Positions 10,622 through 49,134 of a stretch of DNA of 64,000 bases are shown in pieces. The notes below the pieces were generated by a model. The model had not been told where the DNA came from. It searched no databases and worked only from the letters and a program-made list of their open reading frames with translations. This DNA comes from an uncultured Acholeplasmatales bacterium (GTDB taxonomy: Bacteria; Bacillota_I; Bacilli_A; Acholeplasmatales; Anaeroplasmataceae), in contig CALUXS010000003.1 of assembly GCA_944324805.1 (NCBI GenBank), forward strand, positions 124,001 through 188,000, read 5' to 3'. The position numbers and the translations under genes were made by a program. Each line of letters starts with the position of its first letter. The stretch's first letter is position 1.

Positions 10622-10645
10622 AAAAAAAGCTTTTTAAAAAAGCTT
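10622..10645 (-). terminator. Terminator of rpmG
   Basis: Minus strand AAGC-T-rich/A-rich-GCTT hairpin starting at the rpmG stop, followed by seven T. It ends only a few bases before the MBL start codon. Confidence 0.75.
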
Positions 10646-10793
10646 ACTTCTTTTCTTTATGAACTGTATGTTTGTGGCAATGAGGACAGTATTTCTTTAA
10701 CTCCATTCTTTCAGGAGTAGTTTTCTTATTCTTATCTGTATAATAATTTTCATTTTTGCAATCTGCACAAACTAATTTTACTAAATCACGCAT
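10644..10793 (-). CDS. rpmG: Ribosomal protein L33 (zinc-binding type)
   Basis: A 49-residue large-subunit ribosomal protein read directly from the sequence: [18 protein letters not shown]..., ending [10 protein letters not shown]. Cysteines 9, 12, 36 and 39 (CADC...CPHC) form the zinc site, so this is the C+ form, not the zinc-independent paralogue. A GGAGG ribosome site lies 6 bases upstream, and a TTGCAT-17-TATAAT promoter lies just before it. A hairpin terminator follows immediately. Confidence 0.95.
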
Positions 10794-10937: not shown

Positions 10938-10967
10938 AAAAAAAGAAGCTAAAGAGCTTCTTTTTTT
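10938..10967 (-). terminator. Terminator of the small RNA
   Basis: GAAGCT - AAAG - AGCTTC stem (10945-10960) flanked by seven A on one side and seven T on the other, so it can work in both directions. No gene on the plus strand needs it. Confidence 0.88.
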
Positions 10968-11065
10968 AAAAGGCTGTTGCAAAAAAATTATGAGAAGGAA
11001 AAGGGGGTTCATAACTTGAAACGCTTAAAGTATAGGGGAAATAAAAGCGCTTTTACAACCTTCAC
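10938..11065 (-). ncRNA. Candidate small RNA with two C-rich hairpin loops
   Basis: An intergenic transcription unit of about 128 nt without an ORF. A promoter (TTGACT-16-TATAAT) precedes it and a perfect intrinsic terminator ends it. The minus-strand RNA folds by eye as a three-way junction. A closing stem of 8 bp pairs 11062-11055 with 10977-10970 (AAGGUUGU/ACAGCCUU). It encloses hairpin 1 (arms 11049-11045 and 11026-11022, loop with UUUCCCCUAU) and hairpin 2 (arms UUAUGA/UCAUAA, 11014-11009 and 10993-10988, 15-base loop with ACCCCCUUUUCC). C-rich loops are typical of Firmicutes regulatory RNAs that pair with Shine-Dalgarno sequences. It does not look like SRP RNA, 6S, RNase P RNA or tmRNA. 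Confidence 0.7.
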
Positions 11066-11069
11066 GAGA

Positions 11070-11097
11070 ATTATACCATTATATTTTTTAAAGTCAA
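11070..11097 (-). promoter_or_regulatory. Promoter of the small RNA
   Basis: Minus strand TTGACT (11092-11097), 16 bases, TATAAT (11070-11075), predicting a start near 11064. It lies after the LacI-gene terminator, so the unit is independent. Confidence 0.78.
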
Positions 11098-11130: not shown

Positions 11131-11155
11131 AAAAAAAGAGGAAAATTCCTCTTTT
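11131..11155 (-). terminator. Terminator of the LacI-family gene
   Basis: GAGGA/TCCTC hairpin flanked by A and T runs, directly at the stop codon at 11154. Confidence 0.82.
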
Positions 11156-12134
11156 AAGCACTTTCTTTAATAGAAAGATCTGTTTTTATCTCTTCTACTC
11201 TTGCATCCTTATTAGATTCAATCATTTCTTTTAACATTTGAGCAGCCATTTTTGAAGATAATTCAATTTTATTATCAACAGATGTTAGACTAGGACTGCA
11301 CAATTCACCATACTCACTAGCATTAAAGCCAACAACATCAACATCAGTTCCAACCTTGAATCCTTCTTTATTTAAAGCTCTTATTACCCCAATTGAAATT
11401 AAATCTTCTCCACTTATAATTCCATCTACATCACGACAATCAAATAAAATTCTTTCTGTTTGTTCATATCCGCCAAAAATATCATTAGTAAAATAGATTT
11501 GTGGTGATAAGCCTCTTTCTTTCATCGCTCTAACATATCCTGTTGCTTTATTAGAAGCACTAGAATTACTATTATATTGAATATATTTTATTCTTGTACG
11601 TCCTTTGTTTATAAGATATTTAGTAGCTTCATAGATACCATTTTGGTCATCTACATAAACAGCACCACAACGATTTACAGCTAATCTACCATTTGTTAAT
11701 ACTACTGGTATATTTTTTATTTTCGCTAATACATCAGGATAACGATTTAACTCATTAAAAATAGAACCTATAAATATAATACCATCAACATTTAGTTCTA
11801 ATACAGAATCAATATACTTGATACTTGCAGAAATATCCCCAGATGTATTACATACAATTACTCTATAGCCTAAAGGTGAAAGTTCTTTATCAATAAAAAA
11901 AGCTGCATCAGAGTAATGTGGAAGTCTAATATCAACAATCATAACTGCTATTGTTTTCATTGACTTTGTAACTAAGCCTTTTGCAATAGCATTTGGCTTA
12001 AAACCATATTTTGCAATAACTTCTTCTATTCTTTTTTTAGTATCAGGGCGAACATTTTTATTATTTAAAAATCTAGAAACTGTCGAAATTGAAGTACCTG
12101 CTTCTCTAGCAATATCATAAATATTAACTGCCAT
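11154..12134 (-). CDS. LacI/GalR-family transcriptional regulator
   Basis: A 326-residue repressor with N-terminal LacI helix-turn-helix (residues 3-50: IYDIAREAGTSISTVSRFLNN, then hinge KPNAIAKGLVTKS) and a periplasmic-binding-like effector domain (about 60-320, with IGVIRALNKEGFKVGTDVDVVGFN). An AAGGA ribosome site precedes the ATG. No sugar operon is adjacent; it is divergent from ispG and the two promoters overlap. A CcpA-like role is possible since cre-like sites occur before adhE in this window, but the effector pocket could also belong to an ordinary sugar repressor. Confidence 0.9.
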   Translation of the reverse strand: MAVNIYDIAREAGTSISTVSRFLNNKNVRPDTKKRIEEVIAKYGFKPNAIAKGLVTKSMKTIAVMIVDIRLPHYSDAAFFIDKELSPLGYRVIVCNTSGDISASIKYIDSVLELNVDGIIFIGSIFNELNRYPDVLAKIKNIPVVLTNGRLAVNRCGAVYVDDQNGIYEATKYLINKGRTRIKYIQYNSNSSASNKATGYVRAMKERGLSPQIYFTNDIFGGYEQTERILFDCRDVDGIISGEDLISIGVIRALNKEGFKVGTDVDVVGFNASEYGELCSPSLTSVDNKIELSSKMAAQMLKEMIESNKDARVEEIKTDLSIKESA

Positions 12135-15096: not shown

Positions 15097-16900
15097 TTCC
15101 ATTTTCCCCCTCTCTATAATATTTACCTTGAACCATAAACATATTATAGTAAACACCTTGTTTAGCTATGAGTTCATCGTGAGTTCCATACTCTAATAAT
15201 CCATCCTTAGAAAATAAGGCAATATGGTCACAAAATTTTGTTGAAGATAGACGATGTGATATGTAAATTGCCGTTTTATTTTTTACTAGATTATCAAATG
15301 ACTTATAGATAGTAGCCTCTGCTAAAGCATCTAATGCACTAGTTGGTTCATCAAGAATTACTAAGTTAGCGTCCTTATATAAAGCACGCGCAATTGCCAG
15401 TTTTTGAGCTTCGCCACCTGATAAATCAACTCCATCAGACTCTAAAACTTTAAGTAAAGGCTGTTCATACTTTTTAGGTAGTTCTTCAACCTTTTTTTCT
15501 AGACCAACTCTATTTATACATTCCTTTGCTCGTTTTAACTTTTTTTCATCCGTAGTTTTACCAACTACATTTTCTAAAAAAGTTCCTGCATAAATATTTA
15601 CTTCTTGGAAAACAGCGGCTATCATATTTTGATATTCAAAAGTATCAAAAAGGGAAATATCTATACCATTAACTAATATTCTTCCTTCTGTTGGCTTGAA
15701 AAAACCACATATAAGTTTTATTATTGTGGATTTACCTGCTCCATTTTCACCAACTATAGCTAATTTTTCACCTGCATTTATTTTAAAATTTAAATTTTTA
15801 AAAATATATTTTTCGGTTTTTGGATATTTGAAGCTTACATTTTCAAAAACTATTTCTAATGGTACATCTTTAGGTAATGCTTTTTGGTTTCCACCTCTAG
15901 TAATTAAATCCTTGCGATCTAAAAATGTTAAATACTCTTGAGTGAATTTTAGATTTCTAGTCATAGTAACCATAGTATTTGCAATTACTCTTAATGCTGT
16001 TGATAAAGCAATTACAACACTTATATAAAATGATAACTCTCCTAAAGTCATTTTTTCTTTAACAAAAGAATCAATTATAAAATAATAAGCAACTGCATCT
16101 TGTAGTAATAATCCTAAAAGCTCAACTAAACCTAGGGCAAAACGTTTGTTAGCAATTTTCTTTATTACATCAATATAAGTATCAATATGAAAATCATACT
16201 TTTTCTTTAATTCATTGCTCATATTGTATACTCTAATATCTTTACCAAATTTAAAGTCAAATAAGGTGTCATAAAAATATCTAACCTTTTTATTTTCTTT
16301 ATTTCTATCCTTTTTGCATGAATCATAATATTTCATTATTTTGCTATTAGCATAAAAAGATATAATAAAACTTATAATAACTGCTATTACAATAATAGGA
16401 TTTAATATTAAAAGAATAATTGTAAAGGCAATTGCTGAAAATAAATTAGGTAAAATCAAGAACAAATTATGATATACACCTTGAAAGCCCATATCATCAC
16501 TGCTTAAAGCCTCAAGTGAATTATTAGCTTCATAAGAGAACTCAGGATCCTCAAAATGTTCATAATCCATCATTTGATATAAACTTACACAGCGCTTGAA
16601 CTCAATTATTCTTAGCTCAAGAAATTTAGTTTGAGCAATACCATTACAAATGGCTGAAGTAACGCCTAATATTAAATTGATTCCACATAAAATTAAAATA
16701 ATACGTGTTACTTCTTCTGTGGTATTACCAATTTCAATTGCATTTACTATAAGACGTAACATGTATGTACTTAATATTGGTAAAAGACCACCACAAATAA
16801 ATTCAATAATATATAGAAAATAAATGCCATATTTTCTATTACTATTTATTAGTTTAATCTGTCTTAAAAATGTTTCTTTAAGAGTAATATTATTAGTCAT
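15083..16900 (-). CDS. ABC exporter, fused permease-ATPase (first subunit)
   Basis: A 605-residue ABC exporter half: transmembrane domain (residues about 20-320, six helices) and ATPase domain with Walker A GENGAGKSTIIKLICG, signature LSGGEAQKLAIARALY and Walker [13 protein letters not shown]. Signature and catalytic Asp are intact in both this and the partner subunit, so neither ATP site looks degenerate. Good ribosome site (AAGGAGGAG). The upstream region has a TATAAT box and an inverted repeat overlapping the expected -35, so the pair may be regulated. No substrate gene or bacteriocin precursor is seen. Confidence 0.88.
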   Translation of the reverse strand: MTNNITLKETFLRQIKLINSNRKYGIYFLYIIEFICGGLLPILSTYMLRLIVNAIEIGNTTEEVTRIILILCGINLILGVTSAICNGIAQTKFLELRIIEFKRCVSLYQMMDYEHFEDPEFSYEANNSLEALSSDDMGFQGVYHNLFLILPNLFSAIAFTIILLILNPIIVIAVIISFIISFYANSKIMKYYDSCKKDRNKENKKVRYFYDTLFDFKFGKDIRVYNMSNELKKKYDFHIDTYIDVIKKIANKRFALGLVELLGLLLQDAVAYYFIIDSFVKEKMTLGELSFYISVVIALSTALRVIANTMVTMTRNLKFTQEYLTFLDRKDLITRGGNQKALPKDVPLEIVFENVSFKYPKTEKYIFKNLNFKINAGEKLAIVGENGAGKSTIIKLICGFFKPTEGRILVNGIDISLFDTFEYQNMIAAVFQEVNIYAGTFLENVVGKTTDEKKLKRAKECINRVGLEKKVEELPKKYEQPLLKVLESDGVDLSGGEAQKLAIARALYKDANLVILDEPTSALDALAEATIYKSFDNLVKNKTAIYISHRLSSTKFCDHIALFSKDGLLEYGTHDELIAKQGVYYNMFMVQGKYYREGENGNGEN

Positions 16901-46385: not shown

Positions 46386-49019
46386 TTACTTGTTTTCTTC
46401 TTTATCTAAGAATTCTTCAGTATAATAAGCATCCTTTAAGATTTGCATCATATCTGCTACCATAGGAACTCTTGGGTTAGCAGGAGAACATTGATCTTCA
46501 TATGCTAGATATGCTAATTTTTCAATATTAGCTAAATATTCTTTTTCATCTAAGCCTTGGCTCTTGAAGTTCATCTTGATACCTAAACGTTTTGCCAATT
46601 CACCACAAGCTTTAGCATATGATTCAACACCCTCTTCAACTGTTGAACATGGTAAACCTAAGATTCTAGCTAATTCTGCATAACGCTCATCAGCACGATA
46701 ATAGTTATATTTTGGCCATGTAGATAATTTTTGAGGACGAACACCATTATAACGAATAGTAAATGGTAATAAAATTGCATTTGCACGTCCATGAGGAACA
46801 TGGAACTCGCCACCAATCTTGTGAGCCATAGAGTGGTTCATACCTAAGAATGCATTAGCAAAAGCCATACCTGCTAAACATGAAGCATTATGCATCTTTT
46901 CACGAGCTTCAGGATCTTTAGCACCATTATTATATGAACGTTCAAGATATTGGAATACCATCTTAATAGCTTGAATTGCTAGACCATCTGTAAAGTCATT
47001 AGCTAATGTTGATACATATGCTTCAGTAGCATGTGTTAAAACATCCATACCTGTATCAGCTGTAATTGATCTTGGTAAATTATAAGTTAATACTGGGTCA
47101 AGAATTGCTACTGTTGGAGTTAAAGAATAATCTGTTAATGGATATTTCTTATGTTCAAGTTTATCAGTAATAACTGCGAATGGAGTTACTTCTGAACCTG
47201 TACCTGATGTAGTTGGAATACATACTAATTTTGCTTTATGACCTAATTCAGGATATTGGAAAGCACGTTTACGAATATCCATAAATTTTTGTTTTAAATC
47301 GTTAAAGTTAACTTCTGGTTGTTCATAGAATAACCACATACCCTTAGCAGCATCCATTGATGAACCACCACCTAAAGCGATGATTGTATCTGGTTCAAAG
47401 CTGCGCATCAATTCAACACCCTTTTGAACTGTTTGGATTGATGGATCTGGTTCAACATCACAGAAAATTGAATAAGGAACCTTTGGAGAACGTAACTCTA
47501 ATTGATCAGTTACCTTTCTTACAAATCCTAAATCAACCATTGAACGGTCAGTAATAATCATTACTTTCTTCATTTCTTTCATTTGATGTAAATATTCAAT
47601 TGCATCTCTTTCGAAATAAATCTTTGATGGGATCTTGAACCATTGCATGTTGTTTCTTCTACGACCTACTTTCTTAATATTTAATAGGTTGATAGCACTA
47701 ACGTTACCTGCAACTGAGTTATGACCATAAGAACCACAACCTAAAGTCAATGATGGTAAGAATGAGTTATAAACGTTACCAATACCACCGAATGTTGATG
47801 GTGAATTCCAAATAATACGAATAGCTGGAATAATATGTCCAAATCTATCAGCTAATTCTTGTGAAGCTGTATGGATAGCAGCACTGTGTCCTAAACCATT
47901 AAATTCAACCATATTCTTAGCATATTCAATACCTTGTTCAGTTGTTTTAACCTTTAAAATAGCTAAAACAGGAGATAATTTTTCACGAGTTAATGGTTCA
48001 TCAACGCCAACCTTAGAGCATTCAGCAGCAATAATTGGAGTTTTTGGATCTACTGTAAATCCAGATTGTTCAGCAATCCATGTTGCATATTTACCAACAA
48101 CATTTGGATTTAATTTAGCAAGTGGCTTATCCTCTTTCTTTTCAACGCCAAACATGAATTTTTCAAGTTTCTTCTTTTCATCCTTAGTAGCAAAATGAAC
48201 TCCATATTTCTTGAATTCAGCAACTACTTGATCATAAATTTCCTCATCAATGATAACAGCTTGTTCAGAAGCACAAACCATACCATTATCAAATGATTTA
48301 GACATTACTACATCATTTACAGCTTGACGTACATTACATGTCTTTTCAAAATATGCAGGAACGTTACCAGCACCTACACCTAATGCAGGTTTACCACATG
48401 AATATGCAGCCTTAACCATTGCATTACCACCAGTTGCAAGAATTGTTGATACACCTGGATGATTCATTAAAGCTGTTGTAGCTTCCATTGAAGGATGTTC
48501 AATCCATTGAATACAATTTGCTGGTGCCCCCGCAGCAATAGCAGCATCGTATACAACCTTTGCAGCCATAACACTACATTTTTGTGCATTTGGATGGAAT
48601 GCAAATACGATTGGATTTCTAGTTTTTAAACAAATTAATGATTTGAAAATTGCTGTAGATGTTGGATTTGTAACAGGAGTGATACCAGCTACAACACCAA
48701 CTGGTTCTGCAATTTCAGTTAAACCAGTTACATCATCTTCCTTAATGATACCAACTGTTTTTAAACGTTTCATATTATGAGTTACATATTCACAAGCAAA
48801 TAAGTTTTTTGTAGCCTTATCTTCGAATACACCACGACCAGTTTCTTCGATTGCAGCTTTAGCCAAATTACCATGTTGATCTAGAGCAGCAACACTACAT
48901 TTTGCAACAATGAAATCAATTTGCTCTTGTGTGAAAGAAGCATATTCGTCTAATGCCTTTAATGCTTTTTCAACTAAGCCATTTACTTCTTCTTGCGCAG
49001 AAATAATTTTTTCTTCCAT
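46386..49019 (-). CDS. adhE: Bifunctional aldehyde-alcohol dehydrogenase AdhE
   Basis: An 877-residue fermentation enzyme reducing acetyl-CoA to acetaldehyde and then ethanol with NADH. Residues 1-440 are the CoA-acylating aldehyde dehydrogenase ([10 protein letters not shown], catalytic Cys in [10 protein letters not shown]); after linker [16 protein letters not shown], residues 455-870 are the iron alcohol dehydrogenase ([13 protein letters not shown], iron ligands around [25 protein letters not shown] and [11 protein letters not shown]). CGGAGG ribosome site. The promoter is flanked upstream by two cre-like sites, suggesting catabolite control. Confidence 0.97.
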
Positions 49020-49089: not shown

Positions 49090-49103
49090 TGTAAACGTTT
49101 TTA
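49090..49103. promoter_or_regulatory. cre-like site 1 before adhE
   Basis: TGTAAACGTTTTTA matches the CcpA operator consensus TGWAANCGNTNWCA at 13 of 14 positions and lies just upstream of the adhE -35 box. Confidence 0.65.
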
Positions 49104-49120: not shown

Positions 49121-49134
49121 TAAAAACGTTTTTA
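49121..49134. promoter_or_regulatory. cre-like site 2 before adhE
   Basis: TAAAAACGTTTTTA matches the consensus at 12 of 14 positions. Its centre is 31 bases from that of site 1, about three helical turns, so both sites face the same side of the DNA. Confidence 0.5.

Follow-up and report, generated by a model that had tools for sequence, protein, structure and literature searches.

A candidate LacI-controlled small RNA with two C-rich loops and predicted rhamnogalacturonan-degradation targets in an uncultured Acholeplasmatales bacterium

Between the gene for ribosomal protein L33 (rpmG) and a gene encoding a LacI-family regulator, the genome of an uncultured Acholeplasmatales bacterium carries a short stretch with the signals of a transcription unit. 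A sequence-only reading had proposed that it encodes a small RNA (sRNA) acting in trans on ribosome sites, which raises the questions of whether the gene is real, what might control it and which mRNAs it might address. The window, i.e. the whole stretch of DNA that was analysed, comprises 64,000 nucleotides, and coordinates given without a prefix refer to it.

The locus and the predicted RNA

The promoter consists of the -35 hexamer TTGACT (11097-11092, assigned by sequence match) and the -10 hexamer TATAAT (11075-11070) with a TG extension (11078-11077), separated by a 16-nt spacer and together matching the consensus at 11 of 12 positions. It was found where the sequence-only reading had placed it, on the minus strand, which that reading had not named and on which all genes and signals described in this section lie. 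The transcript is predicted to be ~127 nt long (about 11063 to 10937), its 5′ end being set ~7 nt past the -10 hexamer and its 3′ end by an intrinsic terminator (10968-10937; 14 pairs, loop of 4, T-tail). The regulator gene lacI1 (11154..12134; 326 aa) is separated from the sRNA gene by a terminator of its own (11155-11134), and rpmG (10644..10793), the next gene downstream, is preceded by what by eye appears to be its own TATAAT. ORFs overlapping the sRNA, likewise inspected by eye, either have no ribosome site or extend through the terminator, leaving no credible ORF; a leaderless peptide of 18 codons (GTG at 11065) was rejected, as its start would lie upstream of the expected transcription start. 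The ORF-free stretch and the perfect terminator with its 14-bp stem were thus confirmed, and the promoter, the terminator and the lack of a credible ORF support the proposal of an independent gene. The locus is best read as a real, independently transcribed, noncoding sRNA gene, as predicted from its sequence. An upstream TGAAAGCGTATTACA is a weak candidate for a CcpA-type cre site.

The core of the RNA (10969..11063) is predicted to fold into a closed three-way junction with two exposed C-rich hairpin loops, in agreement with the stem-loops described previously. Stem P1 (9 bp; 11063-11055/10977-10969) starts at the predicted first base of the transcript and closes the junction, P2 (8 bp; 11052-11045/11026-11019) carries loop 1 (18 nt; 11027..11044; UUAUUUCCCCUAUACUUU), and P3 (9 bp; 11017-11009/10993-10985) carries loop 2 (15 nt; 10994..11008; AACCCCCUUUUCCUU). 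Eleven of the 12 G residues of the core are paired and 15 of the 22 C residues unpaired, and in the predicted fold all nine C of the two C-runs have an unpaired probability of 1.0. None of 200 shuffles was as stable as the fold including the terminator (z = -5.8), and none of 2000 dinucleotide shuffles was as stable as the core alone (z = -4.3). Holding the palindrome described below fixed gave z = -3.8 (4/2000 shuffles as stable), and fixing both strands of P2 gave z = -3.1 (14/2000); the plus strand gave a poorer fold (z = -1.7). Fold stability alone is nevertheless weak evidence, because 67 of 804 noncoding 95-nt segments of a 461-kb sample, terminators included, reach z ≤ -3.5.

An operator-like palindrome behind the promoter

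A perfect palindrome resembling a LacI-type operator, TAAAAGCGCTTTTA (11042..11055, no strand), lies 14 nt past the -10 hexamer; the sequence-only reading, though correct about the other sequence elements, had overlooked it. The same DNA also encodes the 5′ strand of P2. The 1.83-Mb genome contains just two exact copies of its core, AAAAGCGCTTTT, and both follow a lacI paralogue: the copy at the sRNA locus lies ~100 bp downstream of lacI1, and the other, at G000:C6:18124, ~180 bp downstream of lacI2. The latter gene heads a hexuronate locus with uxuA (C6:22631; TIGR00695, 387.9 bits) and an adjoining gene for a fructuronate-reductase-type dehydrogenase (sub-cutoff in NCBIfam, Mannitol_dh in Pfam). 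LacI1 and LacI2 are 55% identical and share an identical SISTVS stretch, which we take to be the recognition helix.

The motif WWAAAGCGCTTTWW has 22 sites in eight genomes of the genus, and the loci of 15 of them were read. In sister species it lies 11-15 nt past the -10 hexamer of mannonate-dehydratase and fructuronate-reductase-type promoters; among the promoters fetched from relatives, six of the uxuA/uxuB type have a perfect TATAAT, and the distance from this hexamer to the start of the site is 11, 12, 12, 12, 15 and 15 nt, comparable to the 14 nt at the sRNA. We infer that this spacing is the position of a repressor blocking the start of transcription; the sRNA gene has the operator motif at the repressor position of its promoter, as would a member of a LacI-type hexuronate regulon. 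For several of the 15 loci, no connection with uronates was apparent, and in the relatives the motif accompanies lacI2, not lacI1. The only other TAAAAGCGCTTTTA among the fetched sequences was found in genome G004, ahead of an operon that matches GH88 weakly (22.3 bits against a cutoff of 26.6).

Two further LacI-operator-like palindromes in the window, TGTAAACGTTTTTA (49090-49103) and TAAAAACGTTTTTA (49121-49134), are 31 bp apart and lie a short way upstream of a gene for an AdhE-type aldehyde/alcohol dehydrogenase (46386-49019). At the uxuA promoters of L069, L070 and L080, GAAAACGCTTGC(A/T)A sites, presumably cre-like by consensus, overlap the -35 region, suggesting that these promoters may be under dual CcpA/LacI control.

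Predicted targets of the two loops

Whole-genome pattern searches for ribosome sites complementary to the loops yielded the first predicted target of loop 2, the ribosome site of a gene resembling rhamnogalacturonan (RG) lyase 11 (G000:C3:77295; -20.9 kcal/mol), which is also the top loop-2 site in the 461-kb sample. The product is an FG-GAP protein of 656 aa with an RGL11_C match of 25.6 bits (cutoff 27), and the RG-lyase label is weak; a GH28 gene (polygalacturonase; 110.5 bits) follows in the same operon. The whole genome was also searched with RRGGRRRRGGGG, which describes every 12-mer that pairs fully with the loop segment CCCCUUUUCCUU, G-U pairs allowed, in a register picked after the first target had been seen. 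Besides the complement of the sRNA itself, the pattern has two genomic sites (one for the reversed control pattern), and both are ribosome sites of pectin genes with 12-13 bp of full pairing with loop 2. The second (G000:C10:18984; 13 bp, -24.0) belongs to a GH88 gene (304.7 bits), the best solved relatives of whose product are YteR-like (321 bits; GH88/105). When the opening of the mRNA is counted, the energies are -21.5 for GH88 and -16.6 for the RG lyase, while loop 2 averages -4.7 (sd 3.8) over 382 sampled starts, with a best value of -16.9 at one start. By eye, both leaders are apparently very short, and the pairing region lies just behind a TATAAT. The second-best loop-2 site of the 461-kb sample (-20.7 to -23.9, depending on the loop length used) is located inside the RG-lyase-like coding region (L112 about 16714-16730, G000:C3:76714-76730, minus strand).

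For loop 1, the G-rich positions on both strands of the 461-kb sample were considered. The top site, AAAGUAUAGGGGGAA (G000:C3:116323-116337), forms 15 contiguous pairs including one G-U (-21.5 kcal/mol) and, ending 6 nt upstream of the start codon, is the ribosome site of a gene for a GDSL protein of 237 aa. This protein matches rhamnogalacturonan acetylesterase 1deo with 45 bits and YxiM 2o14 with 47.6 bits, and the label RG-acetylesterase is based on the former PDB match together with a sub-cutoff match to the pectin acetylesterase PaeY. RG lyase, unsaturated rhamnogalacturonyl hydrolase and RG acetylesterase share the same polymer substrate.

Several further observations concern these genes and loops. 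The acetylesterase-like gene starts right after a strong terminator-like hairpin, apparently that of rpsU (L114 about 16317-16370, G000:C3), and has no clear promoter of its own. A few codons past the start of a 107-aa ORF (L126 12580-12903, G000:C5, minus strand) lies TATAGGGGAAAT, 12 bp perfectly complementary to loop 1 and a possible extra target. The start of lacI2 pairs with loop 1 over 9 bp and was rejected as not distinctive (rank 10 for this loop). Between the operator at lacI2 and a gene resembling a transporter gene (L079; G000:C6:17945-18260), the leader contains TTTAAAAGGGGTAGAA, which is complementary to loop 2 over 8 bp and does not lie at the start codon.

A scan of the start regions of 382 ORFs from the 461 kb allowed the previously suggested targets to be evaluated. 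polA, the ABC exporter and the CoA-transferase do have ribosome sites containing GGGG, as described, yet these are not the best matches of the loops: the ABC exporter ranked 7th of the 382 ORFs, and polA and the CoA-transferase fell outside the top 30. What stood was the trans-acting, ribosome-site-blocking design, supported by the fact that both loops matched ribosome sites within a single pathway; in place of the named targets, genes of rhamnogalacturonan degradation were matched, which had been overlooked. The loops were then permuted with their C-runs preserved (150 permutations per loop), using a set of five pectin genes. A top site at a start of this set was obtained with 8/150 permutations of loop 1 and 1/150 of loop 2, and an equally strong or stronger site with 7/150 and 44/150, respectively. 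Because permuted loops reach them, the duplex energies are ordinary, and the weight thus rests on place and pathway. The product of the two location rates is of the order of 1 in 1000 and does not yet take the post hoc choice of the gene set into account. The GH88 site lies outside the permutation sample and adds support.

In 861 kb, a site is carried by two of seven pectin-set genes; uxuA, uxuB, the pectinesterase gene and kdgA have none. A 400-kb hold-out contained no start site as strong, its best loop sites (-18.3 and -18.4) both lying away from starts, and its two GH28-like genes were likewise without sites. In the relatives, six orthologues of the RG lyase (59-64% identical), all in genomes without the sRNA, gave loop-2 energies of -4.0 to -10.1, and the seventh relative has no orthologue. 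The RG-lyase site therefore appears to be confined to the genome with the RNA, although this amounts to a single event in a single gene.

The loops are complementary to the ribosome sites of three functionally related pectin genes, with the caveats from the permuted loops, and it has to be asked whether they are the targets that matter. The sRNA could be real and LacI-controlled and act mainly on other mRNAs, the rhamnogalacturonan matches being coincidences of G-rich ribosome sites. Permuted loops often reach equally strong duplexes, GGGG occurs in 23 of the 360 sampled ORFs with a clear ribosome site, and there are other strong sites such as those of loop 1 with the 107-aa ORF (L126 12580) and an ORF start at L109 10877. 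We consider this explanation unlikely, since the three best fully paired ribosome sites found share a pathway that makes up ~1% of the sampled ORFs, and the RG-lyase site is absent from the six orthologues in relatives without the sRNA.

Apparent lineage specificity, proposed circuit and related systems

Rfam contains no family that matches the RNA at gathering score, and the sub-threshold matches of a permissive scan were not credible; a known housekeeping RNA, which the sequence-only reading had wished to see excluded, was thus not matched. BLASTN within the genus returned only promoter-like and terminator-like matches; nine of these were inspected and turned out to be unrelated loci, one of them apparently a tRNA promoter. 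A covariance model built from the single sRNA sequence was run against 55 genomes of the family, eight of them of the genus and the own genome included. It recovered only the locus itself and no homologue in the seven relatives of the genus or the 47 other family genomes; seven weak matches (E 0.26-0.93; one in the own genome) were read and rejected. Exact and gapped DNA patterns searched in public genomes and viral contigs gave no match or one match, in a GC-rich archaeal coding sequence, that was judged to be due to chance. Conservation of stems and loops in relatives, on which the sequence-only reading had made its proposal depend, was hence not found (0/7 genus relatives, 0/47 other family genomes), and a covariation test was impossible because none of the 54 other family genomes holds a homologue. 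The sRNA looks lineage-specific.

The syntenic lacI1 locus of the seven relatives, in which LacI1 is 58-64% identical, contains neither the sRNA nor the operator. In five of them, a pectinesterase-like ORF (PF01095, 69.8 bits in the one of the five that was scanned) directly follows lacI1, in the other two different genes do so, and rpmG follows at the locus in four of the seven. As the pectinesterase-like ORF is missing at the sRNA locus, the promoter and operator could be left over from lost pectin genes and give rise to a short terminated leader without RNA function; furthermore, both strands of P2 resemble operator half-sites, so that P2 could be a by-product of DNA palindromes. However, in the relatives this ORF follows lacI1 without an operator between them, the fold is still unusual when the two strands of P2 are held constant, P1 closes where the transcript is predicted to begin, and neither C-run is paired, which makes such a remnant improbable. 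That the palindrome, ~100 bp behind lacI1, serves only as a distal DNA operator for lacI1 autoregulation, with an incidental RNA, is very improbable, because the promoter in front of it is near consensus and the palindrome occupies the place of a repressor there, spaced as at the uxu promoters.

We thus return to the reading that we regard as probable, a LacI-controlled trans-acting sRNA that represses rhamnogalacturonan breakdown. Sequence elements, motif distribution and complementarity are its observed basis; transcription, the identity of the repressor, the inducer and the sign of regulation are inferred. A hexuronate/pectin-type LacI repressor, either LacI1 from the neighbouring gene or the paralogous LacI2, would bind the palindrome at approximately +9 to +22 and block transcription, until an inducer, probably a uronate or pectin breakdown product, frees the promoter. 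The released sRNA would expose its two C-rich loops on the three-way junction, loop 2 pairing with the ribosome sites of the RG-lyase-11-like gene of the GH28 operon and of the YteR-like GH88/GH105 hydrolase gene, and loop 1 with that of the RG-acetylesterase-like gene. Translation initiation would be blocked, and rhamnogalacturonan breakdown throttled while uronates are plentiful. More tentatively, and with slightly more doubt than confidence, we suggest that a pathway-dedicated RNA extends the LacI hexuronate regulon to genes without an operator: one palindrome would be both repressor site in the DNA and stem in the RNA, the two loops would be antisense to different steps of rhamnogalacturonan-I degradation (lyase/hydrolase and acetylesterase) in a product feedback, and the RNA and the ribosome sites that match it in its targets would have emerged jointly within a single lineage.

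CcpA belongs to the LacI family. The Staphylococcus aureus sRNA RsaI is CcpA-repressed and prevents the translation of sugar genes by base-pairing with their ribosome sites (PMC9266662), much as is proposed here; its regulator is the global CcpA rather than a hexuronate-type LacI, its targets are glcU_2, fn3K and icaR, and the two are likened by description. In IsrR of staphylococci, C-rich single-stranded loops pair with ribosome sites and a repressor box lies immediately downstream of the start (PMC9410917), both of which are predicted here; unlike the present RNA, IsrR is under iron/Fur control, addresses iron enzymes, is conserved through its genus and has three stem-loops instead of one closed three-way junction. 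RsaE/RoxS and FsrA also direct a C-rich motif towards ribosome sites (UCCC in the case of RsaE; PMC9266662, PMC9410917), with SrrAB (RsaE) and Fur (FsrA) as regulators, whereas the sRNA described here has no Rfam match. GibS is an sRNA of the gut bacterium Bacteroides thetaiotaomicron, reported in the context of glycan metabolism; it belongs to another phylum and no relation is claimed. A literature search, with most subscription papers outside its scope, returned no LacI- or uronate-controlled sRNA and no sRNA acting on rhamnogalacturonan or pectin genes.

To our knowledge, few sRNAs have been mapped in poorly studied low-GC bacteria. The sRNA is a candidate member of a known functional class, the trans-acting sRNAs of Firmicutes with C-rich loops, in a predicted circuit that is specific and testable. 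If the circuit is true, a complete path from sugar to RNA to enzyme in pectin degradation could be tested directly, as a regulator and three targets are already proposed. It would also show a lineage-specific sRNA and the ribosome sites of its targets arising together, because in close relatives the RG-lyase-like gene is present, whereas the RNA and the site matching it are both missing.
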